Positions 3,401 to 56,781 of a stretch of 64,000 bases of DNA are shown here, one piece after another. This DNA comes from Gibbula magus (lineage: Eukaryota > Mollusca > Gastropoda > Trochida > Trochidae), in the NCBI GenBank assembly GCA_936450465.1, contig OW388300.1:52207551-52271550 (forward strand), written 5' to 3'. Each line of letters opens with the position of its first letter. Within the stretch, counting starts at the first letter, position 1. The position numbers and the translations under genes were made by a program. Under the pieces are notes generated by a model, which saw only the letters and a program-made list of their open reading frames with translations, had not been told where the DNA came from and did not search any database.

Positions 3401-3654
3401 CAGTAGACGAATTGGAAGGCGGTGTATGAAAACATGTTATATGTTTTATATGTTAAGGTTATTTGAGACTTTAAAATATAAGACAAAAATCAAATATGTA
3501 CGATGTTAACAAAGAATATGAAATATGTTATAGATTCCAGTCATTATTCCTGTGGGCTTAGAGCATGCATTGAACGTGGATAATGCGCTTTACAAATTGA
3601 ACATATTATTATTGGAAATAAGCTCAAGGCATGAGTCTGTGCTTGTAGATACAG
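459..3654. other. gene-free stretch
   Basis: I see no supportable gene. A minus-strand open frame at 1202-1714 (170 codons) shows no recognisable motif and no convincing splice context. The part around 840-1060 looks like a decayed interspersed repeat. The rest is AT-rich non-coding sequence. Confidence 0.5.
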
Positions 3655-6030
3655 GAAGTGAGTGGCCACTGACGACAGAGCTGTTGGGAGTGAGTAGCGA
3701 CTGACTACAGAGCTGTAGGGAGTGAGTGGCCGCTGACGACAGAGCTGTAGGAAGTGAGTGGCCACTGACGACCGAGCTGTAGGGAGTGAGTGGCCACTGA
3801 CTACAGAGTTGTAGGAAGTGAGCGGCCACTGACGACCGAGCTGTAGGGAGTGAGTGGCCACTGACTACAGAGTTGTAGGGAGTGAGTGGCCACTGACGAC
3901 CGAGCTGTAGGGAGTGAGTGGCCACTGACGACCGAGCTGTAGGAAGTGAGTGGCCACTGACGACAGAGCTGTAGGGAGTGAGCGGCCACTGACGACAGAG
4001 CTGTAGGAAGTGAGTGGCCACTGACGACAGAGCTGTAGGAAGTGAGTGGCCACTGGCGACCGAGCTGTAGGGAGTGAGTGGCCACTGGCGACCGAGCTGT
4101 AGGGAGTGTTTGGCCACTGACGACCGAGCTGTAGGGAGTGAGTGGCCACTGACGACAGAGCTGTAGGAAGTGAGTGGCCACTGACGACAGAGCTGTAGGA
4201 AGTGAGTGGCCACTGGCGACCGAGCTGTAGGGAGTGAGTGGCCACTGACGACCGAGCTGTAGGAAGTGAGTGGCCACTGACGACAGAGCTGTAGGGAGTG
4301 AGCGGCCACTGACGACCGAGCTGTAGGAAGTGAGTGGCCACTGACGACAGAGCTGTAGGAAGTGAGTGGCCACTGGCGACCGAGCTGTAGGGAGTGAGTG
4401 GCCACTGGCGACCGAGCTGTAGGGAGTGTTTGGCCACTGGCGACCGAGCTGTAGGAAGTGAGTGGCCACTGACGACAGAGCTGTAGGAAGTGAGTGGCCA
4501 CTGACGACAGAGCTGTAGGAAGTGAGTGGCCACTGGCGACCGAGCTGTAGGGAGTGAGTGGCCACTGACTACATAGCTGTAGGAAGTGAGTGGCCACTGA
4601 CGACAGAGCTGTAGGGAGTGTGTGGCCACTGACTACATAGCTGTAGGAAGTGAGTGGTCACTGACGACAGAGCTGTAGGGAGTGTGTGGCCACTGGCGAC
4701 CGAGCTGTAGGAAGTGAGTGGCCACTGACGACAGAGCTGTAGGAAGTGAGTGGCCACTGACGACAGAGCTGTAGGAAGTGAGTGGCCACTGACGACAGAG
4801 CTGTAGGGAGTGAGTGGCCACTGACTACAGAGTTGTAGGGAGTGAGTGGCCACTGACGACCGAGCTGTAGGAAGTGAGTGGCCACTGACGACAGAGCTGT
4901 AGGAAGTGAGTGGCCACTGGCGACCGAGCTGTAGGGAGTGAGTGGCCACTGGCGACCGAGCTGTAGGGAGTGTTTGGCCACTGGCGACCGAGCTGTAGGA
5001 AGTGAGTGGCCACTGACGACAGAGCTGTAGGAAGTGAGTGGCCACTGACGACAGAGCTGTAGGAAGTGAGTGGCCACTGGCGACCGAGCTGTAGGGAGTG
5101 AGTGGCCACTGACTACATAGCTGTAGGAAGTGAGTGGCCACTGACGACAGAGCTGTAGGGAGTGTGTGGCCACTGGCGACCGAGCTGTAGGAAGTGAGTG
5201 GCCACTGACTACAGAGTTGTAGGGAGTGAGTGGCCACTGACGACCGAGCTGTAGGAAGTGAGTGGCCACTGACGACAGAGCTGTAGGAAGTGAGCGGCCA
5301 CTGGCGACCGAGCTGTAGGGAGTGAGTGGCCACTGACGACAGAGCTGTAGGGAGTGAGTGACCACTGACTACAGAGCTGTAGGAATTGAGTGGCCACTGA
5401 CGACAGAGCTGTAGGGAGTGTGTGGCCACTGGCGACCGAGCTGTAGGAAGTGAGTGGCCACTGGCGACCGAGCTGTAGGGAGTGAGTGGCGACTGACTAC
5501 AGAGCTGTAGGGAGTGTGTGGCGACTGACGACCGAGCTGTAGGGAGTGAGTGGCGACTGACTACAGAGCTGTAGGGAGTGTGTGGCGACTGACGACCGAG
5601 CTGTAGGGAGTGAGTGGCGACTGACTACAGAGTTGTAGGGAGTGAGTGGCGACTGACAACATAGCTTTAGGGAGTGAGGGGCGACTTACTACAGAGCTGT
5701 AGGGAGTGAGTGGCGACTGAGGACAGAGCTGTAGGGAGTGAGGGGCGACCGACTACAGAGCTGTAGGGAGTGAGTGGCGACTGAGGACAGAACTGTAGGG
5801 AGTGAGTGGCGACTGACTACAGAGCTGTAGGGAGTGAGTGGCGACTGACTACATGTACATAGCTGTAGGGAGTGAGTGGCGACTGACAACTGAGCTGTAG
5901 AGAGTGAGCGGCGACTGAGGACAGAGCTGTAGGGAGTGAGTGGCGACTGAGGACAGAGCTGTAGGGAGTGAGTGGCGACTGAGGACAGAGCTGTAGGGAG
6001 TGAGTGGCGACTGAGGACAGAGCTGTTCAA
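3655..6030. repeat. 32-bp minisatellite array (about 74 copies)
   Basis: The unit is AGTGAGTGGCCACTGACGAC followed by AGAGCTGTAGGA (32 bp). It repeats with point variants (GACGACC/GACGACA, GGGAGT/GGAAGT, CTACAG). Two blocks are visible: up to about 5480 units mostly read GGCCAC, and from there on they read GGCGAC. A rare GTGTTTGG variant recurs near 4108, 4428 and 4972, spacings of 10 and 17 units, which suggests multi-unit duplication. Since 32 is not divisible by three, three units give 32 codons and long spurious minus-strand frames of up to 335 codons (THFLQLC/RQWPLT). These should not be annotated as proteins. Confidence 0.97.
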
Positions 6031-8381: not shown

Positions 8382-10541
8382 ACAAAATTGTGTAAAAACT
8401 TGAAAAACAATAAAGCAGGGGGCCAGGATAACCTGGTATATGAACATTTGAAACACGGAGGACAAGTGCTTATGCAACACATATGTGCTCTCTTCAACCT
8501 CGTAATCAACACAGGACATATCCCTGCAGCGTGGAAGACAAGTGCTATTCTCCCAATCTATAAAGGTGGGAACAAAAACAGGAAAGAACCTGGATCATAC
8601 AGAGGCATATCACTCCTGCCAGTCATTGAAAAACTATTTGAAATGGCTATACTACCACACCTAACTGCCTTGGAATTTTCAAGATCCTTCCCAAACTGCC
8701 AACAGGTGGCGTACCAACCAAAGCTATTTGCACTCCACGCTTCATTTAACCTCCAGGAAGCTATCCACTACTACCACGAACGGAAATCTGATCTTCACGT
8801 AGCCTTTCTTGACTCATCAAAGGCTTTCGATACAGTTTGGCACAATGGCCTGAAATTAAAGCTATTTGAAAACGGTGTAAAAGGCCATCTGTGGATCCTG
8901 GTAGACAAACTGTACACGAAAATGAGCAGCTGTGTAAGAATTGGCGGCCAAGAATCAAGACCATTTTACCTCTACCAAGGAATCAGACAAGGAGGAGTTT
9001 TATCTGCCAGACTCTATCTCCTGTTCATTGACCAACTTTTGACAGACCTCACTGCTACCAACAGAGGTGCATGTATTCTTGATAGCAACACGTGCTGTCC
9101 TACTCAAGCCGATGACATCGCACTCGCCAGCCCATCTATGAGTGGTTTGAGAGTCCTCGTTGGAATAGCTGAAGACTACAGCAGAAACTGGAGATTCACA
9201 TTCTCAACCTCAAAGAGTGTACTTATCACATTTAGACACAAAAGCAATAAGCCTACTAACTTCAAGCCCCCCAGTCTCTATGGCAACGCGTTACCGAGAG
9301 CACAAACGATAAAACATGTTGGTGTTACCCTCACATACAACATGAACTCAGTGGAAAGAACCTTTAAAGCCAGTACGAGTCTTAAAGCAAGTGTACACAT
9401 CTTATCAGCGAGTGGATTCAACATAACATTTGTAAGTCCCTTAACATGCCTGAGATTGGTGAAATCCGTGTCGATTCCAAAGGCATTACATGGATGTGAG
9501 CTGTGGAATTCCTTATCAGACACTGAGAACAAACTCCTCGAAAGAGCCTTCAGACACGTTGTGAAACACATTCAAGATCTCCCGAGACGTACAAGAACTG
9601 ATGTCTGTCTTGGCCTTCTTGGTCTTCTACCACTGGAAGCTGAAATTGACACCAAGAAACTGATATTCTTTGGAAAATTAACAGCAATGAAGAAACATCT
9701 CCTCCCACTTAAGATACTTGCCTCGAGAATACTTCAATACCACCACAACGTCTCACCAGAAGCAAAAGGATTCATGCCAGACCTCTACAGACTGCTGCAA
9801 AAGTACTCTCTCAAGCAATATGCAGATACTTACATCGATACTGGACAATTCCCAACTTATACTTCCTGGAAGAGAATCATCAAGAACACAGTCCGGTCTT
9901 ACCATACCTCTGCATGGAGAAAGATAATTTCTGAAGATGAAGAACTCTCACTGTTCGCTAAAATTCACCCAACACTAACAGTGCATCCAGCTTGGACCCT
10001 CTCACAATCGACTCCATCTACAAGGAAACCTGCAAGCTTCCTAATCAAGATGTGCTCAGTCTACAAAGATGTACATCTTGATGATACGTTGTGTGACAGA
10101 TGTGGATTGTTCTACACCGATCCACTACTCCATATCCTAACTGCCTGCGACTACCTCATCGACATCAGAGACAAGCTGTGGTGTGCCTTAGCCAACATTG
10201 GGCCACTGGACTTCAGCGCCCATCTGCACAACATGTCAGACAAAGACCTCGTGCTATGTCTCCTGTCCTGCAGACCAAACTTCCATCTCAACTGTAGAGA
10301 CAAAGAGGCATTTGTCGAGGTGTCGGTAACATTCCTCCATTCCATGTTCAGACTATTCTACGACCTAAGATCTGACAATATGTGATGCGCGCACAGAACG
10401 ACTGATGACATTTAAATGTACCAAGCTGTAAATAACTGTCTCTCATTTCAAAACTCCCATATGTAATTATATGTTTGTATTATTATTATATTGTTAACGA
10501 ACTCTCCTGTACAAATTGGAGGATGAATAAACATATATATA
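8382..10541 (+). mobile_element. 5'-truncated non-LTR retrotransposon (LINE)
   Basis: A 2.16-kb insertion begins inside the reverse transcriptase reading frame and ends with AATAAA and an (AT)n tail (ACATATATATAT). It is flanked on both sides by the 291-bp direct repeat. It lacks the 5' UTR, any first open frame, the endonuclease and the N-terminal part of the reverse transcriptase, which is usual for a copy arrested during reverse transcription. The near-identity of the flanking repeats suggests a recent insertion. Confidence 0.92.
8388..10385 (+). CDS. LINE reverse transcriptase, N-terminally truncated
   Basis: An uninterrupted frame of about 665 codons enters from the truncation point without a proper ATG; its first codon is TTG. 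It opens with the fingers motif NNKAGGQDNL, then KTSAILPIYKGG and GSYRGISLLP. Next come the first catalytic aspartate segment (FLDSSKAFDTVWH), GIRQGGVLSARLY, and the YxDD-box equivalent written QADDIALASP. The C-terminal part carries a cysteine/histidine knuckle (CDRCGLFYTDPLLHILTAC), as in many LINEs. The YxDD box has Q instead of Y or A before ADD. The frame is intact but cannot drive retrotransposition alone because the endonuclease is missing. The clade (jockey/I-like or other) cannot be settled by eye. Confidence 0.93.
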   Translation: MCKNLKNNKAGGQDNLVYEHLKHGGQVLMQHICALFNLVINTGHIPAAWKTSAILPIYKGGNKNRKEPGSYRGISLLPVIEKLFEMAILPHLTALEFSRSFPNCQQVAYQPKLFALHASFNLQEAIHYYHERKSDLHVAFLDSSKAFDTVWHNGLKLKLFENGVKGHLWILVDKLYTKMSSCVRIGGQESRPFYLYQGIRQGGVLSARLYLLFIDQLLTDLTATNRGACILDSNTCCPTQADDIALASPSMSGLRVLVGIAEDYSRNWRFTFSTSKSVLITFRHKSNKPTNFKPPSLYGNALPRAQTIKHVGVTLTYNMNSVERTFKASTSLKASVHILSASGFNITFVSPLTCLRLVKSVSIPKALHGCELWNSLSDTENKLLERAFRHVVKHIQDLPRRTRTDVCLGLLGLLPLEAEIDTKKLIFFGKLTAMKKHLLPLKILASRILQYHHNVSPEAKGFMPDLYRLLQKYSLKQYADTYIDTGQFPTYTSWKRIIKNTVRSYHTSAWRKIISEDEELSLFAKIHPTLTVHPAWTLSQSTPSTRKPASFLIKMCSVYKDVHLDDTLCDRCGLFYTDPLLHILTACDYLIDIRDKLWCALANIGPLDFSAHLHNMSDKDLVLCLLSCRPNFHLNCRDKEAFVEVSVTFLHSMFRLFYDLRSDNM

Positions 10542-10939: not shown

Positions 10940-13900
10940 ATGCTGGTGTCGATTCTGAGCGTGCTGCTCGCCGCCTCCGTCTTCCTGCTCGTCCTGGAGC
11001 AGCGCGTCTCGTCGTCAGGTGGGATCATTTATCAGAAATAAATACACTGAGCAAAACAATTAAGGACCATTGGATTTTTCTCATATTTTGAAAATGTGTG
11101 TCATGAAAACAAGATTATGAATAATATTCTGATGAAGGTCATTGCGATACAAAATAATGAAACAAAAATTAGCATTCTAATGTTTTTAATCAAAAAAGTA
11201 CAGACGTTTTCGGAGTTAAATGTACGTTGCCTCGAAATCGCAATTTTTTCAATCACCAGAAACTGGATTGAAATCAACTTCATTGGCGTGTATGCACACT
11301 TTGTGCATTAAGTACGGCTCAAGAACGTCTTGAAAACCTACGTTGTAGTCTTACGGGTAGTTGTAGTCATACGGGTAGTTGTTGTCATAAGGGTAGTTGT
11401 AGTCATACGGGAAGTTGTAGTCTTACGGGTAGTCAACTTGATATTCCAATAGACTGCCAACTGAAATTATTTGAGAATCTTGTCAAGCCTATTCTCCTTT
11501 ACGGAGCCGAAGTTTGGGGGTTTGAAAATGTTACCATCATCGAACGTGTCCATCTTAAATTTTGCAAATATATTTTAAATGTAAAGCAATCAACTCCAGA
11601 TTTCATGGTTTACGGTGAACTAGGTAGATACCCAATCAGTATATGTGTAAAAGTTAAAATTATATCAAATTGGGCTAAAATAATATGTTGTAATGGCAAA
11701 TTAAATAGCATTTTTTACAGTGTGATGTACAACTTGTATTCTTCAAATTCGGATTTTAGTTTTCCATTATTGTCAAGTGTTAAGCGTATCCTGGAGGAAA
11801 CTGGATTGTATTATGTTTGGCTCTCCCAGTCTGTACCTAGCATTGCTTGGCTTAAAAATAATGTACAATTTATTCTCATAGATCAGTTTAAGCAATTGTT
11901 GTGGCGCTCTGCTGTGGAGTCGTCAAAAGGTTATTACTATACAATGTACAAGCAATCAATATTTTTAGAATCATATTTGTTACAATTACCTTACCATTAC
12001 AGACGCTAGCTAACTAAATTTAGAACTTCAAACCATAGGCTTCCCATTGAAACAGGACGTTGGTCCGGCATTCCAAAATGTAATAGAACCTGTCAATTTT
12101 GTACAACTATTGTATGCGATGAACTTCACTTTTTATTATACTGCCCAGCCCTACATTCCCTCAGATGTCAATTCCTTCCCCAATACTTCTGTAAACATCC
12201 TCATATTGAAAAATTTATTTATTTAATGAAATGTGATTATTCGCCACTTAACTCTAAAATTGCTCAATTTATCAAAGCTGGACTTTGTACACTGTTTTAG
12301 TATGTGTGTAAATGCTGTATGTTATCTGTGTCACTTTGTGTGATTTTCGAGAATAAAATGTCTGTTCTGTTCTGTTGTCATACGGGCAGTTGTCATACGG
12401 GTAGTTGTTGTCATACGGGTAGTTGTTGTCATACGGGTAGTTGTAGTGTTACGGATAGTTGTTGTCCTACGGGTAGTTGTTGTCATACGGGTAGTTGTTG
12501 TCATATGGGTAGTTGTTGTCATACGGGTAGTTGTAGTGTTAAGGATAGTTGTTGTCCTACGGGTAGTTGTTGTCATACGGGTAGTTGTTGTCATATGGGT
12601 AGTTGTTGTCATACGGGTATTTGTAATCTTACGGGTAGTTGTAGTTTTGCGGGCAGTTGTTGTCATACGGGTAGTTGTAGTCTTGCAGGTAGTTGTTGTC
12701 ATATGGGTAGTTGTAGTCTTACGGGTAGTTGTAGTCATATGAGTAGTTGTAGTTATACGTGTACTTATTGTCATTCGGGTAGTTGTAGTGTTACGGGTAC
12801 TTGTTGTCATACGGGTAGTTGTAGTCTTACGGTTAGTTGTAGTCTTACGGGTAGTTGTAGTCATATGAGTAGTTGTTGTCATTCGGGTAGTTGTAGTGTT
12901 ACGGGTACTTGTAGTGTTACGGGTAGTTGTAGTCTTATGGTTAGTTGTAGTCTTACGGGTAGTTGTAGTCTTACGGTTAGTTGTAGTCTTACGGTTAGTT
13001 GTAGTCTTACGGGTAGTTGTAGTCTTACGGGTAGTTGTTGTCAAACGGACAGTAATTGTCATATGGTTAGTTGTTGTCATACGGGTAGTTGTAGTTTTAC
13101 GGGTAGTTGTTGCCATAGGGGTAGTTGTTGTCATACGGGTAGTTGTAGTCTTACGGGTAGTTGTAGTCTTACGGGCAGTAATTGTCATACGGGCAGTAAT
13201 TGTCATACGGGTAATTGAAGTGTTGCGGGTAGTTGTAGTCATACGGGTAGTTGTTGTCATACGGGTACTTGTTGTCATACGGGTAGTTGTAGTAAATTTG
13301 TTTTATTCTGCCAGACAGGTTTACTACAATTCACCCGGCGACTTCTTCTCAAGAATCACTGACTACTAATTAACTTGATGCAACGGCTTGAAGAACTAAA
13401 ACCTACTTTTTCGTAACAATCTTTTGTGTTTTCTTTTGTAAGATGGTGTCTAAAAAAATAACTATCTAAACTTAATGTTTTCGTAATTTTAAAAATGACC
13501 AATTACACAGTTGAAATGATTACCTCGGACGGAGTGAATATATGTGATAACCATCGGTATACAAAAGGTTGAGATCGTTGTTTCACACACACCACATGCT
13601 TATAAATGATGTACTTCTGAACCTAGTTCGTGACCCTAGAGCAAAATATTCAATTGACGACCAGCCCAGTCTAGAAAAGTATAGCAATTCTAGATTACTC
13701 AGCTCTAGGCATCTTTAGGGCTATTGTTTGTAAAAATATTTCTGGGACTAAATGTTAGTCTATATTGAACCCTTAACCTTGCATATAGATATTATTACTT
13801 ATATATTATGACGCCGGGCGATTATTCAAGTTGTGATAATTTAATGATCGAGAAAACTCAACTTGCAAGCATTACCTTAGCTACATTGTCTTTTGTACAT

Positions 13901-16900: not shown

Positions 16901-17952
16901 CTCTCAGCCATGGATTGGTCATTGAGGACTACCTCTCATCTATTTATCTTGACAAACATGCAGGGTAAGTATGCCGTGTGTCTTTGTCATTGAAAAGTAA
17001 CTTATAATATAAAGCTAATAAATGTTTGTAAAACTATATGACACAAGTTGAAGGAGCAATGAACCTCTGTTTCAGACTTATACGGATGGAGTACAGTGCA
17101 AAGATGAAGACGCTGAAGTCGTTCCTGACGTGTTCACTGAGTGACGTGGATCTTCTTACCCTCCACCAGCACCACATGGACAAGAGTCGCAGCACGGAGT
17201 CCTTCAGGCACTGTGCACACAACACCTCCTTGCACGAGTTCGAGTCCACGTGTCTGAGAGGTCTGACGGAGCGCTGTCGCAACTCGGATGTGTCGTTGGT
17301 GAAGACGATCCGCTTCAAGATGGAGAGTGTTGAAGAGCTTCTTTTGCTGCACCCAGAACTCCAAGTCGTGTTGCTAATCAGGGATCCCCGGGCCACACTC
17401 TTCTCGCGGGCACGACTCTACCAGAACGCAGCGACGCGGCTCGAGGCGATGAGATTCCACATGAAGCAGGCCACACCCCACTGCAGTTCTGTCCAGAGAG
17501 ACGTCAGGGACGCAGCCAGACTCGCCTCTCTCTATCCTGGCAGGGTCGGTATTCTCCTCTATGAGAAACTCGTGGAAAATCCTAAACGCATGACCAAATT
17601 GTTATATGATTTCCTCGGTCTGACATTTGACCAGAGTATCGAAACATATGTTCACAAGATTACAGAGTCAGGTCTGCCCGACAACTGTGCTGTATGTACG
17701 ACCCGACGGAACGCAACAGAGACTGCTTCGCGATGGAGGCATGGGCTCGGTTTCGCAGACGTTGCTTCCATAGACCAGGTATGTCAGTCTCTCTACCGCC
17801 AGCTCGGCTACATCGCCTTCCCCGACAGCGGCAGACTGTACAACCTAAACGTGCCCTCATGGGTGGAGACTTACGTACCTGCCCTCCTCACAGACAGGGT
17901 GCCCTCTGTCCTGTCGGACAGGGCCTTCATTAGTCTCCAGCAAGGAATATAA
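10940..17952 (+). CDS. carbohydrate 6-O-sulfotransferase (CHST1/3-like), 3 exons
   Basis: Model: join(10940-11018, 15097-15289, 17076-17952), 382 aa. Splice phases agree at both junctions (CAG|GTGGGA to TTGCAG|AC, then GGG|GTAAGT to TTTCAG|A). The first 19 residues (MLVSILSVLLAASVFLLVL) form a type II signal anchor, as expected for a Golgi enzyme with a luminal catalytic domain. Exon 2 carries the 5'-phosphosulfate loop (VVSYMRSGST, residues 42-51). Exon 3 carries the 3'-phosphate loop (LLIRDPRATLFSR, RDPR at about 193-196). Such enzymes transfer sulfate from PAPS to Gal, GalNAc or GlcNAc residues of glycans; the acceptor cannot be told here. The length is near the family norm. A likely acceptor (TTTCTCATTTCAG, ending 10898) precedes exon 1, so an upstream exon probably exists, and the start at 10940 has a weak context. 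Residues encoded before it (WRRCRPSLRC) could be a cytoplasmic tail. Confidence 0.88.
11345..11434. repeat. 18-bp minisatellite, left part
   Basis: About five copies of the GTCATACGGGTAGTTGTA unit, ending abruptly where a LINE 3' fragment begins. The same unit resumes at 12374, so the LINE appears to have inserted into, or been captured by, the array. Confidence 0.9.
11435..12373 (+). mobile_element. LINE 3'-terminal fragment inside minisatellite
   Basis: In frame from about 11438 the sequence encodes the reverse transcriptase C-terminal part: ILLYGAEVWG, then YGELGRYPISICVKVK. Downstream, after an in-frame stop near 12007, it encodes a cysteine/histidine knuckle (CQFCTTIVCDELHFLLYCPA) and a stop at about 12298. 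The 3' end has AATAAA (12353) and a TGTTCTGTTCTG tail. Stop codons inside the frame mark it as a dead copy. It lies in intron 1 of the sulfotransferase gene in the same orientation. Confidence 0.85.
12374..13296. repeat. 18-bp minisatellite, main array (about 51 copies)
   Basis: Repeats of an 18-bp unit (GTCATACGGGTAGTTGTT with variants CTTACGGG, GTTACGGG, CATATGGG). Because the unit is six codons long, both strands stay open: plus strand (SCCHTG)n for about 304 codons and minus strand (TTTRM)n for about 315 codons. These are repeat artefacts within intron 1 of the sulfotransferase gene. Confidence 0.95.
13297..15096. other. 3' part of sulfotransferase intron 1
   Basis: AT-rich intronic sequence with no recognisable gene or element. 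It ends in the acceptor AGTCTCCTGTTTGCAG. Confidence 0.6.
15200..16700 (+). repeat. 90-bp tandem array seeded by exon 2 end plus splice donor
   Basis: The last 80-odd bases of sulfotransferase exon 2 and its donor (GGGGTAAGTATTGCCTG) form the first unit of an array with a 90-bp period. The anchor AGCTCGTCAA starts at 15241, 15331, 15421 and so on to 16051, then 16141; after a 3-bp insertion it continues from 16234 to 16594, with a truncated copy at 16684. Sixteen copies carry an intact GGGGTAAGTATT donor, and only the first is the real exon end. The unit is 30 codons, but the reading frame meets TAA in GGGTAA at the first donor, so using a later donor would truncate the protein. Confidence 0.95.
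16701..17075 (+). repeat. degenerate copies of the exon-2 unit and intron end
   Basis: Decayed copies of the 90-bp unit remain at about 16741-16800, 16820-16900 and 16915-16975, recognisable by GGCTACCTCACTACTCTGTC, CATGGAGAAG and GACAAACATGCAGGGTAAGTA. They imply an older, wider array. The intron ends with CCTCTGTTTCAG at 17075. Confidence 0.8.
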
Positions 17953-34367: not shown

Positions 34368-37007
34368 TGTAGTGGTATCTGTATTGTAGCCTCCGCAAGT
34401 CTAGAGAGGGGAGCTAACTCGAGCTGACTCGGGAAGTAAACACGTGAATATCACCAGAGTACTTCCAGAAACAAGTCTCTAGACTTCTTGATGGACACGA
34501 AGGTACCATTGGGATAATGGATGACATTTTGATATATGGAAAGGATGTACAGGAACATGATGATCGGGTGAGAAAAACTCTCACAGCTCTCAGTAAAGCA
34601 GGATTGACTCTCAACAAGAACAAGTGTGACTTTGGGAAATCACAGGTACACTTCTTGGGACAAACTATAAGTGACACAGGGATCATAATCAGTAAGGATA
34701 AAGTTGCTGCTGTTAAAGACATGCAAGAACCAAGGAATGTTGGTGACATTCGCCGATTCTTAGGAATGGTTAATCAACTTGGAAAGTTCATCGACAACCT
34801 GGCCGACATGACAAAACCTCTAAGGGATCTTCTCAGCAAAAAGAATGGTTGGATCTGGGCTGATTCTCAGAAGACTGCATTTTCCAGGATCAAGGACGCT
34901 CTCAGTAAGAGTCCGGTATTAGCACTCTTCAATCCCAACCTCCCAACCAAGGTCACTGCAGATGCATCATCTTATGGCTTAGGTGCTGTTCTCACTCAAC
35001 AGCACAAGCAAGGTTGGCGCCCAGTGGTTTATGCATCTCGGTCACTCTCAGATACAGAGACCAGATATGCGCAAATAGAAAAAGAGGCCCTGGCTCTTAC
35101 ATGGGCATGTGAACGATTTCAAGATTATCTGGTTGGAATTCAGGTCGTCCTCGAGACGGATCACAAGCCTTTAGTTCCTCTCCTTGGGATAAAGGATCTT
35201 GATCAGCTGCCACCCCGTGTCCAGCGCTTCAGAATGCGACTAATGAGGTTCTCCTACTCGATCCAGCACGTACCTGGGCGAGAACTCTATACTGCTGATG
35301 CTCTCTCTAGAGCTCCAATGAACTCGCCATCTGCATCAGACTCAATACTCGAGGAAGACGCTGAAGCATACATCCATCAAGTTGCCGCAGCATTCCCTGC
35401 TACAGACAAGAAGCTAGAAGAGATCAAACTTCACCAGCAGGAAGACGAAGTTTGCAGAGAAATCTCAAGGTACTGCACAGAAGGTTGGCCAGAGAAACAC
35501 CAGGTCAAAGGCATTGTGAAACACTATTGGCCTTACCAAAGTGAACTGTCATTGTACAATGGTCTAATTCTCTTTGGAGAACAAATTGTCATTCCTGAAG
35601 TGATGAGACCAGACATTCTGGAGAAACTACATGATGGACATCAAGGAATTACCAAGACTCGTGTTCGTGCCAAACAATGTGTTTGGTGGCCAAACCTCAG
35701 CAAGCAGATTGGTGAGTTTGTATCCAAGTGCCATGTTTGCATCAAGAAAGCAAACAACCCTCCCGAACCTCTGATTGCATCAGAGCTCCCAGCCAGGCCT
35801 TGGGAAAAGGTAGCTTCTGATTTGTTTGAATTTAGGAAATGTTCCTATGTTCTTGTAGTTGACTACTATTCGAGATTTATTGAAGTCTCAAAACTGTCCT
35901 CTACTACCTCAAAAGATGTGATCAACAGTTTGAAGAGCATCTTTTCAAGACATGGGATTCCACAGGTGATGATCTCTGATAATGGGCCTCAATATGCCTC
36001 TGATGAATTTGCAAGGTTCGGCAGAGAATACGGCTTCTCTCACATAAGCAGCAGTCCAGGACATCCCTCTGGAAATGGCGAAGCTGAACGAGCAGTCCGT
36101 ACCATAAAGACACTCCTGAAAGCAACGGAAGATCCATACCAAGCCTTGCTCAGCTATCGTTCAACTCCACTCAGCTGTGGTTATAGTCCGGCCGAACTCC
36201 TGATGTCACGGAAGTTGCGAACCACGCTTCCAATGATTCCAGCACAACTCAATGTAAAGCTACCAGATCAGTCTCAGTTCATCAATCATGAACTCCACAA
36301 ACGTCAAGCTGAAGAAAAGAACTTCAACAGACGGCATGCAGTCCGCTCCCTCCCAGTCCTAGAACAGGGAGATAGAGCATGGATACCAGACAGAGGAGAA
36401 GTTGGTACTATGGTGAACCAGGTCGCTCCACGATCTTACATCATCCAGACAGACTCGGGTCGCTACAGACGGAACAGAAGACAGTTAAATGCATTGCCTT
36501 CAGAGAATGAGTCTGTCCGAGATCAAACATCTTTGTCTAAGGTGCCAATGACGAGTGTTCCTTCAACAGGGGGAACAAGTGGACAATGTAATGACTATGC
36601 GACGAGATCGGGCAGAACATCCAGAGCCCCTGACAAATATGGACATTAAGACCAAATCTTAAGCAAAGAGGTTTTTCAAGTTTATCACTTAAAATGACTG
36701 CCTTATTGGTTCTCATCAGTTAATTCAGTTGTTGCTAAAGAACAGTTTATTGAGTTACTCTTTAAATCAGGGAAGCTGATATTGGTAGAAATTTGTTTTG
36801 ATTAATTAAAGTTACTATCATAAAAGTAAATCGTGTTCAACGCCATTGTCCATCCTCAGAAAGGGAGATGTAGTGGTATCTGTATTGTAGCCTCCGCAAG
36901 TCTAGAGAGGGGAGCTATCTCTAGCTGACTCGGGAAGTAAACACGTGAATATCACCAGGCTCGTTGTGTCTTCATTCAGACTAGAAAGGACCCCCTCTAA
37001 CCTAAAA
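34368..37007 (+). mobile_element. Ty3/Gypsy-type LTR retrotransposon, internally deleted
   Basis: A 90-bp sequence (TGTAGTGGTATCTG to AATATCACCAG) is repeated at 34368-34457 and 36869-36958. A polypurine run (AGAAAGGGAGA) precedes the right copy. The left copy joins directly to the middle of the reverse transcriptase, so gag, protease and the N-terminal half of the reverse transcriptase are gone, and probably the end of the 5' LTR and the primer-binding site too. If ACATG at 34363-34367 and 37008-37012 is the target duplication, the 3' LTR is 36869-37007 (139 bp). That end does not show the usual CA, so the boundary is tentative. Confidence 0.8.
34458..36649 (+). CDS. Ty3/Gypsy pol fragment (RT, RNase H, integrase)
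   Basis: An open frame of about 730 codons enters from the LTR junction; the first ATG is at 34517. In order it shows the end of the reverse transcriptase (MDDILIYGKD, then FLGQTISDTGI), RNase H (TADASSYGLGAVLTQQ, LETDHKPL), and the integrase zinc finger (HDGHQGITKTR with CHVCIKK). The catalytic core is DDE: VVDYYSRF, ISDNGPQYAS and GNGEAERAV. The fingers and YxDD upstream part of the reverse transcriptase is lost except MDD, so the copy is not autonomous. There are no stops, which suggests the deletion is young. Confidence 0.93.
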
Positions 37008-45931: not shown

Positions 45932-47266
45932 ATGACACGATATCACTTGGTGTATTTCAGATTTGCTTTATCTGTCGCGTTGATAAAACGTCAGTTCATT
46001 GAGAGTGGAGGGCGATGTCTACCTTTTGGTCAGAAAACAACAACATTTTCTAGTTGTTTTGAAACGATGTCGTGCAGACGACACGAAAGCGTGGAGGGGT
46101 CGCTTGGTAGGACGAACGATGTTATTGTTTGTGGTGATGTCAACACTGCCACCAGTCACGTTATCTACTTCGGCGGCGATGTTCAGGTAATGCGGTTATG
46201 AATCCGAAACTACCGGGGACAGTGCCTGTAGGTAATCTAGTCTAGTTATTCCCTGGACTAGTCCCATCTGACCACAATCCTTTGAGTTACGGTTCACTAC
46301 AGAGGCTCTATATCTTTGTCTTTTCTCCACAAACCGAAGGAATATAAGTTGTTGATTTGTTAACCCACTGACAACTATTTATGGGTTTTTTAAATTAATG
46401 AATATGTAGGTAATTATATACTCTATGTAGGCCTAAATAATGTATCAATTAAAATCTAATAAGCTACAAAGTCAATAGCTCTCTTTTCAATGTGAAAATA
46501 ATATCACTTAATGTTTTAAACAATAGACTTACATATGGTTTTGACATGATTACAGGACTATCGAGAAAAGATGATGAACCACAGAGACAACAAACGATAC
46601 TCGCACTGGAACCTTGAGAACACAGCCGTCATGATGTCTCAGCGCTTTCATCCATCTGCTGTCTTCGTTATCAAACCTTGCAGAATGCACCTCAATACTT
46701 TCAGTGTGTATTCTAACTTTGTGGAATCTTGCAATGACTTTGGAAACCCAACTGGTATGGAGCCAGGCCGGTCCTGGCAGCATCTGGAGCTGTTGTACAG
46801 GAACACGCTGGAGAGAGAACTTGTTGGTGACGGCAGTGACGTCCGACACAAAGAAAGTGTTTCTCTTCGACTGATGGGCTTCAGCAAGGGTTGCATAGTG
46901 CTTAACCAACTGCTGATGGATCTGCAGGCTGCACTGTGTGACAATGGTAGGAAGGCCTTTGTAGATCAGATAGAGGAGTACTACTGGCTGGATGGGGGGC
47001 ACAGCGGAGGCAGCAACACTTGGGTGTGTGACACGGACACCCTGCAAACTTTCAGTGAACTGGGCAAGAAGATCCATGTTCATGTGTCGCCCTACCAGGT
47101 GAAGGACCCCATGCGAGCCTGGGTGGGGAAGGAGGAGAGGAAGTTTGTCAACAAGCTCAGGAAGTTTGGTGCAAATGTGACGGAGACACTGCACTTTGAT
47201 GACATGCCTGCATCAATAGAAAACCACTTTGGTGTTCTTGAAGTATTTCACATAGAAAAGTCATAG
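45932..47266 (+). CDS. C2orf69: C2orf69 homologue, 2 exons
   Basis: Model: join(45932-46186, 46556-47266), up to 321 aa (human about 385). The junction is CAG|GTAATG to TTACAG|GACTAT, phase 0, joining SHVIYFGGDVQ to DYREKM as in the family. Conserved blocks are HWNLENTAVMMSQRF, VFVIKPCRMHL, LMGFSKGCIVLNQLL (Ser about 195), a YYWLDGGHSGGSNTW block and SIENHFGVLEVF. The last three fit an alpha/beta-hydrolase-like fold with a G-x-S-x-G-type nucleophile elbow. The human protein is mitochondrial and its loss causes a severe multisystem disease; its substrate is not known to me. The N-terminus is uncertain: the ATG at 45932 gives a basic leader, and the ATG at 46067 (MSCRRHES) is an alternative. 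The frame is intact. Confidence 0.93.
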
Positions 47267-52142: not shown

Positions 52143-52330
52143 TAGGGGAGACCGGGGCAGGTTCGTCCCCTTTTCACTAAAATTAAGCTAGAGAGTTCGT
52201 TTAATGACATATCCTTGCGCGTGTTTGTACAGATATAGAGCGACAACTTGGCTTTCTTGCAGTAATTGTTCAGAGTGCCTAATATCATATATTTTCCCAT
52301 AACTGTGTTTTTGAGAGAACAAGTTGAAAA

Positions 52331-52597
52331 GCCGAACTTACCCCGCCTCGGGGCAGGTTCGGCTACCCCCTGGGGCAGGTTCGGCCATGCTTGGGACCAA
52401 TCGGGGCACGTTCGGCCAACACCAATTAAAGAAAGGGACAAGAGATATATTCTCAATAAATATATTAAAAGTTACATATTTGCGAAAAAGGCGACATAAC
52501 ATTGCTTTACAAAGATATATTTTATGATGATGTAGATTCAGTATTTATCTGGTGACATGGTTTTAAAAAAATCGAAGTGCATGGCCGAACGTGCCCC
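52331..52597. repeat. left subterminal motif cluster of the pogo-like element
   Basis: The motif GGGGCANGTTCGGCC occurs at 52350, 52372 and 52403 in forward orientation. It occurs inverted at 52331 (GCCGAACTTACCCC) and 52583 (GGCCGAACGTGCCCC). It matches the inner part of the terminal repeat and probably marks transposase binding sites. Confidence 0.8.
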
Positions 52598-52845
52598 TGG
52601 AATGAAAAAGAGATTTAGGAAAAAGTGTTGGATATTTTGTGTTTTATTCAAACTGTAACAAGTATGATAATTGAATGCAACATACTTTTAACAAGATAAC
52701 TAAACATTTTGGCCATTAAACAATCTATTTCATGGAAAACGAAATTGCGGAAATTATATCCTTTGAAGTACAAACACATCAAACCAAAATGGCATAAACA
52801 TCAGCCAACAATCATGAGGGATGTGAATAATGTTCACAATTAACG

Positions 52846-55800
52846 TCAATCACAGTTGTGACAAGTGTATCCTAACATGCCTTGTGTCCCAGCACATTCT
52901 TCATGGGACCACAAGGCACACATGCTGCATTGAACCCAGGTTTCGTTAGGTCTGCTATCACACCAAGATTCTCCGCAGACTAAACAGTTGGTCTCATCTC
53001 CAGAATTGATCACCTGTGTTATTCTGGTTTTCTTGGTTGACTTCCTTCGTTTACCACTTTGCCGTGATGAGGTAGAGGCACGATGAGCCTTCCGTGGTGG
53101 AGTAGGGGAAGCATCAGGAGCCTTCTGTGGTAGAGTAGAGGAAGCATCAGGAGCCTTTCGTGGTGGAGTAGAGGAAGCATCAGAAGCCTTCCGTGGTGGA
53201 GTAGAAGCATCAGGAACCTTCCGTGGTGGGGTAGAAGCATCAGGAGCACTTCGTGGTGGAGTAGGGGAAGCATCAGGAGCCTTCCGTGGTGGGGTAGAAG
53301 CATCAGGAGCACTTCGTGGTGGAGTAGGGGAAGCATCAGGAGCCTTCCGTGGTGGGGTAGAAGCATCAGGAGCACTTCGTGGTGGAGTAGGGGAAGCATC
53401 AGGAGCCTTTCGTGGTGGAGTAGAGGAAGCATCAGAAGCCTTCCGTGGTGGAGTAGAAGCATCAGGAACCTTCCGTGGTGGGGTAGAAGCATCAGGAGCA
53501 CTTCGTGGTGGAGTAGGGGAAGCATCAGGAGCCTTTCGTGGTGGAGTAGAGGAAGCATCAGAAGCCTTCCGTGGTGGAGTAGAAGCATCAGGAGCCTTTC
53601 GTGGTTGAGTAGAAGCAACAGGAGCCTTCCGTGGTGGGGTAGAAGCATCAGGAGCCTTTCGTGGTGGAGTAGGGGAAGCATCAGGAGCCTTTCGTGGTGG
53701 AGTAGGGGAAGCACCAGAAGCCTTTCGTGGTGGAGTAGGGGAAGCACCAGGAGCACTTCGTGGTGGAGTAGAAGCACCAGAAGCCTTTCGTGGTGGAGTA
53801 GGGGAAGCACCAGGAGCACTTCGTGGTGGAGTAGGGAAAGCATCAGGAGCACTTCGTGGTGGTGTACATGTAGGAACATCAGAAACATCTTGAGGTGGCC
53901 TTTTTGGTTCAGCTGATGCCATAGACGGGCAGGTATTTGATGTTGTAGAAGTTTCAGATGATTTGCAACAATTGCCACAAGTATAATGCAACATTTCAAG
54001 TAAATTAGCACAATCCTCATGAGCCCAATATTTGCAGATACTGCACTGGATCCACGTCTCACGGGGCCTGCTATTGGACCACGTTCCCTGACAAACTAAG
54101 CATATCTCTGATTCGGTCGATTGGTTTCGTTTTGAAGTGCAACGTTTCTTTTTTTTCACAGGCTTGCTTGTCTTCTTCGGCAGTGTAGATCCTAGGCTCT
54201 TCCTCGCTTTGGTATTCTGGCGTGCTTGTCTCTTCTCCTGTTCAACCCTTAGAGCTTCCTTCTCTGGTGTATCGGTATCCTTGCGTTGGGGAGCTTTAGG
54301 GTGAGGACTTACACTTTCTGGTGAAAATCCATTGTCTGATGACTGGTCAAACGTGGTGGATGTTGTAGTGGTTGAATCACTTTCTGTTGCCCTGGCTACG
54401 TAAGTTGATTGACAGAAGACAGCACTGTAATGGGCTGCCACGCCTGTGCCATTCAGCGTTAGGTAGATGGTATGCTCAATGCCAATGCCTGGTCTTCCTG
54501 GGACTTGAAACACCTCGTAGACAACTCCATTCAAACAGTGCACTACAATTGCCTTCATTTGCAATGTATTGCACAATGCGTTTAGAATCATATCTCCCAT
54601 GTTGTTGTCATAATCACTGTCTGCTAAAAATCTTCGAACAGCTGATGATACATCCGGGTCCTCGGTCAAAGAAAATTCTGCATAGAAGTCACTGTGATCT
54701 TCGACTTCTTGTACCAGACGCTTGCCAATGTCTTCAGGTGTAAAGATTCCACATCCGGAAACTTGAAGTGCTGTGCTAACTGAATAAAGTAAGCAATGTC
54801 CGTCAACTCGGACTGGTATGACTGACATCTGTCGATCGTTCATGTAGCGAACTAGAACATCATTGCTAGTACTTCGATGATCTTTGTCCCCAGTAGCTTC
54901 AGGGGTATCCATTTGACGAATTGTACTTGCTGATTCAGTGGAGTCGGTAAGGGGACGATCCGTAACACTGGATGCGATAAAATCGTCGTCAGAGAAGATT
55001 TCATTCTGAAAGGGGAATATTCCAGCTTTTGCAAAGCCACTACAGATGTTTCTCATCGTCAGGGCAGCCTGCCATGGTTCATGTAAGATGGAAGCGGTAT
55101 CATAGATTGAGATTGGCCTGCCAGGATGGTTGCGTAGCCAGTTGGTTTGAGATTGAGAAATCTTCTTCTTCAAAGGACCAAACACAGAAAGATCCAAGGG
55201 TTGCAAGCGATGGGAACAGTGCGGTGGAAATGATAGCATGATGATTCCATTGGACCTGGCATACTCTAGCACCTGTATTGACAAATGTGAGTCGTGGTTA
55301 TCTAGAAAAACCAAGACAGGCTTTTCCTTCGAGGGTTTTGCATGCTCCACAAAATGTTGGCAGAACTTGAGGAAATTGTCGGCTGTCATCCATCCAGATT
55401 TATGTGCCGAACCCCTGGAACCAACTGGTGCTCCTGTCAAGAAGTGTTCACGAAAGTTCACACGTGGGTAAATGAGAAACGGTGGGATAACTTGACCAGA
55501 TTCAGAAATCGCTGCACACAGGGTAACCAGCTGACCTCGCTCTGCAGATGTCAATGCCCCTACTTGCTTAACACCAGTTGCAGCCACAATTTTATTAGGC
55601 TTGCCAACTGTCATTATTCCAGTCTCATCAATGTTCCAGATATCCTTCGCGTCAAAGGGGTACCTGTCCATAACATCAGCAAGTTTAGTGAAGAACATTG
55701 AAACATTAGCCTTGTTGAATGCTGTTGCCCTCCCAATACTTGTAGACTCCGGTGTTCGCATTGACAATGAGGGATGTCTCTTCATAAACCCGGAGAACCA

Positions 55801-56199
55801 GTCAGCACCAGCCATTTCTTGGTCGCTCCATTTTGCAGGCATTTTTATTTCAAAACGCTTTGCACATTGGTAAGCTAGTGAACGAACATCTTTTGGACTG
55901 AGTCCAAAATATATTTCGGCAGCTCGTTTGAGATATCCCTCAAGTTGTTTTTCCTGGTCCTCAGTAAACACTTTTTTGTGTTTTGAATATCCAATTGCAA
56001 AATCGTCCAGCGAGTGTTGATCTGGTACTGCTTTGAGTCTTCTTAAATAGCTCTGCAAGGTCGATCTAGGCATGTCAAACTTTGCAGCCGTTTTCTTCAT
56101 ACCATCGCCAGTGCTTTGATGGTGGTCTATTGCACTTCTAATGACATCAGGGTGCATATTCCCAGATCGGTCAGTTTTTCGGACATATGTGCGGACCAT
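52846..56199 (-). CDS. pogo-like transposase fused to OTU protease and two PHD fingers
   Basis: Single frame; the ATG at 56199 (MVRTYVRKTDR, numbered M17) is the likely start because an acceptor-like ACTTTCAG lies just upstream, giving 1117 aa. The in-frame ATG at 56247 would give 1133, and the numbers below use that start. A psq/CENP-B-type HTH lies at about 30-75. The pogo catalytic core has D207 (IWNIDETG), D316 (VFLDNHDSH) and D352 (HRLQPLDLSVFGPLK), a DD35D spacing. An OTU-type cysteine protease follows with D482 and C485 (VDGHCLLYSV) and H606 (AAHYSAV). PHD finger 1 is C4HC3: C716, C719, C735, C738, H743, C746, C757, C760. A proline-rich repeat of PDASPTPPRKA units covers about 795-1065. 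A second PHD finger ends at C1132. Transposition activity follows from the family; the roles of the OTU and PHD parts are inference (deubiquitination, chromatin reading). Confidence 0.93.
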   Translation of the reverse strand: MVRTYVRKTDRSGNMHPDVIRSAIDHHQSTGDGMKKTAAKFDMPRSTLQSYLRRLKAVPDQHSLDDFAIGYSKHKKVFTEDQEKQLEGYLKRAAEIYFGLSPKDVRSLAYQCAKRFEIKMPAKWSDQEMAGADWFSGFMKRHPSLSMRTPESTSIGRATAFNKANVSMFFTKLADVMDRYPFDAKDIWNIDETGIMTVGKPNKIVAATGVKQVGALTSAERGQLVTLCAAISESGQVIPPFLIYPRVNFREHFLTGAPVGSRGSAHKSGWMTADNFLKFCQHFVEHAKPSKEKPVLVFLDNHDSHLSIQVLEYARSNGIIMLSFPPHCSHRLQPLDLSVFGPLKKKISQSQTNWLRNHPGRPISIYDTASILHEPWQAALTMRNICSGFAKAGIFPFQNEIFSDDDFIASSVTDRPLTDSTESASTIRQMDTPEATGDKDHRSTSNDVLVRYMNDRQMSVIPVRVDGHCLLYSVSTALQVSGCGIFTPEDIGKRLVQEVEDHSDFYAEFSLTEDPDVSSAVRRFLADSDYDNNMGDMILNALCNTLQMKAIVVHCLNGVVYEVFQVPGRPGIGIEHTIYLTLNGTGVAAHYSAVFCQSTYVARATESDSTTTTSTTFDQSSDNGFSPESVSPHPKAPQRKDTDTPEKEALRVEQEKRQARQNTKARKSLGSTLPKKTSKPVKKKKRCTSKRNQSTESEICLVCQGTWSNSRPRETWIQCSICKYWAHEDCANLLEMLHYTCGNCCKSSETSTTSNTCPSMASAEPKRPPQDVSDVPTCTPPRSAPDAFPTPPRSAPGASPTPPRKASGASTPPRSAPGASPTPPRKASGASPTPPRKAPDASPTPPRKAPDASTPPRKAPVASTQPRKAPDASTPPRKASDASSTPPRKAPDASPTPPRSAPDASTPPRKVPDASTPPRKASDASSTPPRKAPDASPTPPRSAPDASTPPRKAPDASPTPPRSAPDASTPPRKAPDASPTPPRSAPDASTPPRKVPDASTPPRKASDASSTPPRKAPDASSTLPQKAPDASPTPPRKAHRASTSSRQSGKRRKSTKKTRITQVINSGDETNCLVCGESWCDSRPNETWVQCSMCALWSHEECAGTQGMLGYTCHNCD
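53090..53870. repeat. in-frame 36/39-bp coding repeat
   Basis: Tandem units reading GGTGGAGTAG(GGGAA)GCATC AGGAGCCTTCCGT, all multiples of three, encode about 20 PDAS(P)TPPRKA repeats between the two PHD fingers of the pogo-like protein. Higher-order repetition is visible, for example 53161-53280 resembles 53401-53520. Confidence 0.92.
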
Positions 56200-56311
56200 T
56201 TTGGTGTGCTCTGAAAGTATACAATGTTTGTTTATATTTTCTATCATTAAACAGTAACTATTGCACTCCAGTTAATATATCACAAAACAATTACTGTCTA
56301 GATAAGTGTGT

Positions 56312-56770
56312 GGGGCACATTCATCCAGGGGGGATGAACCTACCCCGCATTCGGGGTAGGTTCATCCCCCCTGGCCAAACGTGCCCCGTCATTAATAGCC
56401 AAACGTGCCCCAGACCAATATTTCCTCATTATGTAACGTTTGCGATAATCCAGAGCCACCATACCCAAATTACACAATCATTACTTACAGACCTTGTTAT
56501 GTTCCTTGACACCACATGAGGAACAAATGCGTAAATACAAGTACTGTTTTGCAAAAAGAAACTGAATTGCAGATGAAAATTTTACTCACCTTGGTGAAAT
56601 ACGGTTTTTCTTTCACAGAATGTAAAAGGCACGTGTTACAGCCGCCATTTTGTTATCTGTATGTGAGTTAGGTCACGTGGTTTCTTTGGAATCACCAATT
56701 CAAGTTAAGCAGACCACCTAAAAAAAGTTATGGGGGAAAGATGAACGTGCCCCGGGGACGAACCTGCCCC
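56312..56770. repeat. right subterminal motif cluster of the pogo-like element
   Basis: GGGGCACATTCATCC-type motifs lie at 56312, 56332 (inverted), 56353, 56373 (inverted), 56398 (inverted) and 56740 (inverted), plus the terminal copy at 56756. They flank the transposase start, so they may also affect its transcription. Confidence 0.8.
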
Positions 56771-56781
56771 GGTCTCCCCTA

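Follow-up and report, generated by a model that had tools for sequence, protein, structure and literature searches.

A pogo-superfamily transposon of Gibbula magus whose transposase is joined to an OTU domain and two likely PHD fingers

To our knowledge, little is understood of how DNA transposons cope with the chromatin of their hosts and with turnover that depends on ubiquitin. A stretch of 64,000 nucleotides from Gibbula magus (contig OW388300.1, positions 52,207,551 to 52,271,550), hereafter the window, by which the whole stretch is meant, contains a DNA transposon whose single protein joins a transposase to a deubiquitinase-type OTU domain and to two fingers that are likely of the PHD type. 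The identity of the element, of its transposase and of the OTU fold is close to certain. We read it as an autonomous member of the pogo superfamily; that the C-terminal module on its transposase serves to deal with host chromatin is a proposition for and against which we find the chances evenly balanced.

The element and its transposase

The ends of the element, its target site and the transposase part of its coding frame are arranged as follows.

52143..52144, no strand: TA on the low-coordinate side, target-site duplication, read from the flanks
52145..56779, gene on the minus strand: complete pogo-superfamily DNA transposon of 4,635 bp, with terminal inverted repeats (TIRs), TA flanks and an intact open reading frame
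52145..52170, plus strand: TIR, 26 bp, perfect
52350..52597 (starts at 52350, 52372, 52403 and 52583), no strand: subterminal copies of the inner TIR word, putative transposase-binding sites
52846..56199, minus strand: likely coding sequence from Met17, 1,117 amino acids, judged from the Met17 context and the starts of homologues
55033..55629, minus strand: DDE catalytic domain, D207 to residue 405 (D207, D316 and D352; DD35D), DDE_1 at 6.7e-17 and a fold match
55762..55965, minus strand: HTH_Tnp_Tc5-like region, residues 95-162, Pfam E 0.096, below cut-off
56038..56142, minus strand: HTH_psq-like DNA-binding region, residues 36-70, Pfam E 0.029, below cut-off
56312..56387 (starts at 56312, 56332, 56353 and 56373), no strand: subterminal copies of the inner TIR word, putative transposase-binding sites
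56739..56753, minus strand: extra copy of the inner TIR word, adjoining the right TIR
56754..56779, minus strand: TIR, 26 bp, perfect
56780..56781, no strand: TA on the high-coordinate side, target-site duplication, read from the flanks

The original prediction, made from the letters of the window, had described an intact element with perfect TIRs, TA flanks and a single frame, and this was borne out: the coordinates were exact, all 26 TIR bases were identical and the frame had no internal stop. A 20-base word of the TIR, searched with at most 3 mismatches, occurred twice in the window and never in 100 shuffles, and the TIR family of the element is GGGGAGACCGGGGCA. The 15-base inner word of the TIR (up to 3 mismatches) was found in eight internal copies and one copy beside the right TIR, with none within the coding part, in a count made without a shuffled control. 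The inner TIR words of four related elements had no copies inside the element, and in OTU-less relatives from the same genome their own inner word recurs likewise (six times in L016 and five times in L018). Such a pattern would be expected if the copies were binding sites evolving in step with the TIR. In all likelihood, the transposase would bind the TIRs and the subterminal TIR-like repeats via its N-terminal helix-turn-helix (HTH) regions, and would move the element by cut-and-paste at TA.

The open reading frame, 56247..52846 on the minus strand, is open from 56271 and yields 1,133 amino acids from its first Met, which is residue 1 in the numbering used here. Because most full-length homologues begin at MVRxYxRK, which corresponds to Met17 in the window protein, and because Met17 lies in the sequence ACCAAAATGG, which we take to be a good start context, the protein is probably 1,117 amino acids long, starting at Met17.

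DDE_1 (6.7e-17) was the sole Pfam profile above its cut-off on this protein, and the catalytic triad D207, D316 and D352, with a spacing of 35, was invariant across 20 aligned rows, in agreement with the DDD transposase first proposed. The catalytic domain matched the Mos1 transpososome by fold (6e-9); by sequence, the whole protein had no match among solved structures at E up to 0.1. Among the profiles suggested for checking the prediction, DDE_1 passed, whereas OTU (0.028), HTH_psq (0.029) and PHD (0.037) stayed below their cut-offs, and these three assignments are therefore based on homologues, fold and motifs. Of the types of DNA-binding motif that characterise pogo elements (CENP-B_N, ABP1, psq, BrkDBD or Tc5), psq and Tc5 thus gave sub-cut-off matches here, and the psq profile matched 5 of 21 relatives at E ≤ 0.01.

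Of the traits of the pogo superfamily, DDE_1 with a DDD triad, TA on both sides and short TIRs (26 bp here, within the 40 bp of type 1) are present, and TA flanks were also seen at L016, at L012 and at four of the six delimited short copies described below. The element resembles the pogo superfamily (IS630-Tc1-mariner; Passer, Fot, Tigger) in its DDE_1 domain, DD35D triad, short TIRs and TA target and in a putative psq/Tc5-like region, and its 4,635 bp fall within the 1.2-5.2 kb given for pogo elements, whereas its protein exceeds the range of 300-977 amino acids, and the accessible main text of the survey from which these ranges come mentions no C-terminal OTU or PHD (PMC7386202).

The OTU domain and the PHD-type fingers

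Behind the catalytic core, the frame encodes the following parts.

54412..54855, minus strand: OTU domain, residues 465-612 (D482, C485 and H606; Ser608 at the usual Asp/Asn place), from profiles, model and fold
54199..54327, minus strand: conserved linker FSPExVxPhPKAPxR...TDTPEK, common to OTU-less relatives too
53968..54105, minus strand: PHD finger 1, residues 715-760, from profiles and C4HC3 ligands
53068..53877, minus strand: Pro-rich repeat between the PHD fingers, units of about 10-11 amino acids (30/33 bp)
52849..52989, minus strand: PHD finger 2, residues 1087-1133, from profiles and C4HC3 ligands

The structural model of the OTU domain was confident, the 50 best solved-structure rows shown were OTU-type proteases, and Cys485 and His606 were the residues that the original prediction had named. 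Besides C485 and H606, the Cys-loop Asp D482, at the oxyanion position, is retained; Arabidopsis OTU1 needs the counterpart of this Asp, and in OTU crystal structures an Asp or Asn two residues past the His belongs to the triad, according to the accessible part of PMC3950621. At this last position, the 27 readable rows (one of which, P0126, is doubtful, its motif being possibly misplaced) had Asn in 13, Asp in 5, Ser in 5, and Cys, His, Ala and Ile in 1 each; Ser is common to the window element and the genomic copies L009 and L010, and L011 has Asn. OTUD1, OTUD3 and yeast Otu2 share with the window protein an OTU fold with Cys and His, whereas the window OTU is only 10-19% identical to them, has Ser in place of the Asp/Asn after the catalytic His and forms part of a transposase. 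Between the window element and the separate family L011, four-fold sites differ near saturation (0.69 of 112 in the transposase and 0.76 of 25 in the OTU), and 64% of transposase residues and 39% of OTU residues are kept. The OTU appears to be under sequence constraint across families.

Two C4HC3 fingers separated by a proline-rich repeat had also been predicted, and were found at residues 715-760 and 1087-1133 with the 30/33-bp units between them. In both fingers, the zinc ligands are complete and the two Trp of a KDM5-type cage are present. When the family finger profile was compared with solved structures, KDM5B (5.9e-4) and BPTF (6.3e-4) were matched, in a listing of 55 rows that also includes non-PHD rows such as MORC3 and ZBTB17; the top row, the zinc fingers of PRDM9, was set aside, as it aligns only with the last zinc knuckle. 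The fingers are likely PHD-type. The long repeat and the double PHD were seen in the window family only.

Copies, relatives and the history of the OTU domain

Is the fusion a peculiarity of this one copy? A protein search of the genome (1.47 Gb, 140 contigs) gave 54 rows, grouped into about 38 places, of which 20 were examined with profiles, the window included. The window-type OTU was present at nine of these loci (the window, L009 to L015 and L020). Two of them belong to the family of the window element: L009 is decayed and rearranged, with a nucleotide identity of 95% over 1.8 kb and 97% over 0.3 kb in non-repeat pieces, and L010 is decayed with large deletions. Chance capture or an assembly artefact of the window copy, in favour of which it may be said that a double PHD occurs in none of the 181 database relatives described below, retains a negligible probability, as parts of the OTU survive in both L009 and L010, each with two PHD matches of which one is partial, and 28 of the 181 relatives have an OTU in the same slot. 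The single-copy explanation was rejected on these grounds, and the fusion extends, as the original prediction required of a real one, to the two decayed family copies, to further OTU-pogo families in the genome and to the database relatives. L011 represents a separate family, with an 805-codon open frame encoding transposase, OTU and PHD. The protein of L011:3983-6397 is 87% identical over 794 aligned positions to P0003 of Patella caerulea; this likeness would likely reflect horizontal transfer, unless the host is closely related to limpets.

The ends of the element have been mobile as well. Its right end was found at 38 further places, with 79-80% identity over about 405 bases, a lower bound since 40 of 119 candidates were scored. 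Eight of these places (L031-L038) were fetched and six were delimited, L035 and L036 being partial. Five short copies of 1,011-1,023 bp, pairwise 98.3-98.8% identical, have both transposon ends with window-like TIRs; the sixth carries an insert, and four of the six have a clean TA at each end. Apart from the ends, the only match to the transposon, present in some of the short copies, is a stretch of at most 49 bases at the final codons of its open reading frame, so that they hold no transposase gene. The short derivatives are non-autonomous and, because they are nearly identical, ends of the window type have been mobilised recently, by whichever autonomous copy.

In protein databases, 181 relatives were gathered from a first search (259 matches, best 120 used), a profile search (1,514 matches in 7,988 candidates scored, best 120 used) and a third search with the OTU region of P0010 as query, which reached 6 proteins. 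By local profiles, the window-type OTU was present in 28 of the 181 and in the window protein, and a PHD was found in 22 of these 29 rows (of the seven without one, some are truncated or short) and in 129 of the 153 OTU-less relatives; the window protein was the only one with two PHDs. The OTU carriers with a species name are Patella caerulea and Pycnogonum litorale, each with a PHD, and Mytilus edulis, in which no PHD was found, most rows being without an organism. Transposase-OTU fusions thus occur in at least two named animal phyla. A single scan of viral contigs gave 38 pattern matches, none of them a relative by tblastn.

On a tree built from 52 transposase cores (26 of OTU carriers and 26 chosen from the 153 without), the distribution of the OTU required 4 changes against 17.5 when shuffled, with none of 500 shuffles as low, and a single OTU clade was barely not rejected by the approximately unbiased (AU) test (p-AU 0.0599). 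A wider, quickly built tree comprised 86 rows, 26 of them OTU carriers and 60 drawn from the 153 OTU-less relatives, with three OTU rows omitted, two being short and one without a transposase match; it gave 6 changes against 22.6-22.7 in shuffles, and OTU and transposase distances were correlated (Mantel 0.47, p 0.001, 24 rows). From the few changes on the trees and this correlation, it follows that the OTU has largely travelled with its transposase. It has also been lost: P0022, which has no OTU, is nested in the window's OTU clade at 99/99. In OTU-less proteins, the slot between DDE and PHD often holds tandem peptide repeats or is Pro-rich (P0021, P0022, P0131, L018 and L043).

A second OTU type was found at two of the 20 genomic loci, on contigs C2 and C4, where open frames of 774 codons (L039:1082-3403, minus strand) and 858 codons (L040:387-2960, minus strand) use the same slot between DDE and PHD. 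Both pass the Pfam OTU cut-off (42.5 and 42.2 bits against 23.3) and carry the motifs GDGRCLF and HYN; the element at L039 is flanked by TA and has TIRs around GGGTAAyrtGGGGCAAA. Their transposases are 99% identical to each other and group at 100/100 with L041-L043, distant from the window clade. That an OTU was ancestral to pogo-PHD transposases and was lost many times would account for the single slot shared by both types, and losses do happen, as in P0022; this history is nevertheless improbable, since the two types show hardly any similarity to each other (12.8 bits at best), a single clade for both is rejected by the AU test (p 1e-56), and L041-L043, the three sisters of L039 and L040 that were sampled, have PHD-type fingers without an OTU. 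The tree with both types was rooted at its midpoint for drawing only. Two OTU captures into the same slot is the simpler reading of these comparisons.

Outside the element, the window holds the following features.

3590-5624 and 12301-13302: long repetitive stretches with several frames open
8382-10385, plus strand: reverse-transcriptase frame, RVT_1 5.5e-24, probably of a LINE-like element
17032-17952, plus strand: sulfotransferase-family frame, host gene or gene piece
34448-36649, plus strand: frame of a Gypsy-type retroelement, encoding integrase and RNase H domains
46550-47266, plus strand: C2orf69 homologue, host gene or gene piece

Known systems and a possible role

The combination of pogo, OTU and PHD is new on a known superfamily and has clear analogues; it is not a new kind of system. 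The suggestion that it may be undescribed holds for pogo elements in the literature searched, where no pogo-OTU or pogo-PHD element was found (Repbase reports and most subscription papers lay outside this scope, so that an unseen description is possible), and the words PHD and OTU are absent from the accessible main text of two pogo surveys (PMC7386202, PMC7325037) and of a bee pogo paper (PMC8472432). It does not hold for OTU tails as such, since Ginger1 is a published precedent: the accessible part of PMC2836005 describes transposases that have an OTU or Ulp1 protease as their C-terminal tail, and one family, Ginger1-9_HM, with Ulp1 and PHD. Ginger1 differs from the window element in its Gypsy-integrase-like core and its TIRs of 44-270 bp, and no combination of OTU with PHD is tabulated there; membership in Ginger1 was rejected, as no rve match was listed at E up to 1 and DDE_1 was found instead. 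Two apparent precedents fell away, one because its "PHD" was a PhD thesis and the other because it was the Ginger paper itself, in the accessible part of which pogo is just an excluded outgroup. Helentrons and other Helitrons of diverse species likewise encode an OTU-like cysteine protease, although theirs lies in a separate reading frame of an element with a rolling-circle Rep/helicase (PMC4067079, accessible part). PiggyMac and Tpb2, of the PiggyBac type, have a C-terminal cross-brace zinc finger on the transposase that binds histone H3, and differ in their transposase superfamily and in the C1-like fold of the PiggyMac finger, with no protease mentioned in the accessible part of PMC8086355.

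The original prediction had suggested that the fusion could shield the transposase from degradation or guide integration towards marked chromatin. For the window element, we propose that the PHD fingers hold the transposition complex on histone H3 tails, and that the OTU, which lies between catalytic core and PHD, is active in cis and strips ubiquitin from the transposase or from whatever lies directly beside it. For each of these two steps, we put the chances a little short of even. H3K4-methylated tails would be the most likely target because both fingers carry the KDM5-type two-Trp cage, and our confidence in the PHD step is slightly lowered by the fact that, in relatives, the finger fits C1 models about as weakly as it fits PHD models. 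Removal of ubiquitin would avert degradation or extraction of the complex before strand transfer and repair end.

Several observations weigh against this proposal. The OTU is absent from 9 of the 20 genomic loci (L007, L016-L019 and L041-L044), where a Pfam scan of the main frames found none (for L019, of the PHD piece only), and five of them (L016, L017, L018, L041 and L042) have an open frame with a complete transposase core and a PHD. Among the database OTU carriers stand, with strong support for P0022 only, the OTU-less P0021, P0022 and P0131, in all three of which the OTU slot holds low-complexity tandem repeats. With such relatives, the OTU is dispensable. For the fingers, the PHD profile on the window protein is under its cut-off, C1 and other cross-brace models rival PHD in relatives (all sub-cut-off in the tables shown), and the models have predicted local distance difference test scores mostly below 50. 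As for the OTU itself, the position taken by Asp or Asn in active OTUs is Ser608 here. Ratios of nonsynonymous to synonymous change against the two dead copies were 0.67 and 0.75 over the non-repeat part, with few changes, and 1.8 (7 changes) and 0.57 (13 changes) for the OTU alone; with too few changes to decide, recent constraint is neither shown nor excluded.

Because the usual third catalytic residue is replaced by Ser608, any deubiquitinase activity of the window-family OTU is likely reduced and may be lower than that of its relatives. It might even be a weak or dead enzyme retained as a ubiquitin-binding or structural module, a view that can point to the Ser in the window element, L009 and L010 where 18 of the 27 readable rows have Asp or Asn; we consider it improbable, given that D482, C485 and H606 are retained and that the OTU sequence seems constrained across families. 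Somewhat less unlikely is an OTU whose action is in trans, directed at ubiquitin where the DNA is cut or at the target, such as that on ubiquitinated histone H2A or repair factors, and which would thereby steer the repair of donor and target breaks instead of protecting the transposase. The neighbouring PHD would put such an OTU on nucleosomes, and for the OTU and Ulp1 tails of Ginger elements a possible action on DNA-repair factors has been proposed by the authors who described them (PMC2836005, accessible part); nothing in our data, however, indicates a substrate, and the open-frame relatives without an OTU evidently manage without this activity.

With an OTU that acts in cis as the preferred reading for the window element, we put forward, with less confidence than either of its steps, a wider proposal, namely that pogo-PHD transposases captured an OTU at least twice between core and reader, in parallel to Ginger1 and Helentrons, and that ubiquitin removal at PHD-bound chromatin may be something that DNA transposition in eukaryotes repeatedly requires. 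What surprises is how broadly the architecture occurs, together with the likely second capture. A design common to relatives in other animals suggests that these elements gain from tampering with the ubiquitin and chromatin systems of their hosts and, if the reading of repeated capture is true, they would be natural chromatin-addressed deubiquitinase-transposases. A transposase, a deubiquitinase-type domain and a putative histone reader stand here in one chain, with OTU-less sisters that have similar ends and apparently two independent captures as built-in controls, so that this lineage lets one ask whether deubiquitination or H3 reading alters the rate of transposition, the lifetime of the transposase or the choice of target.

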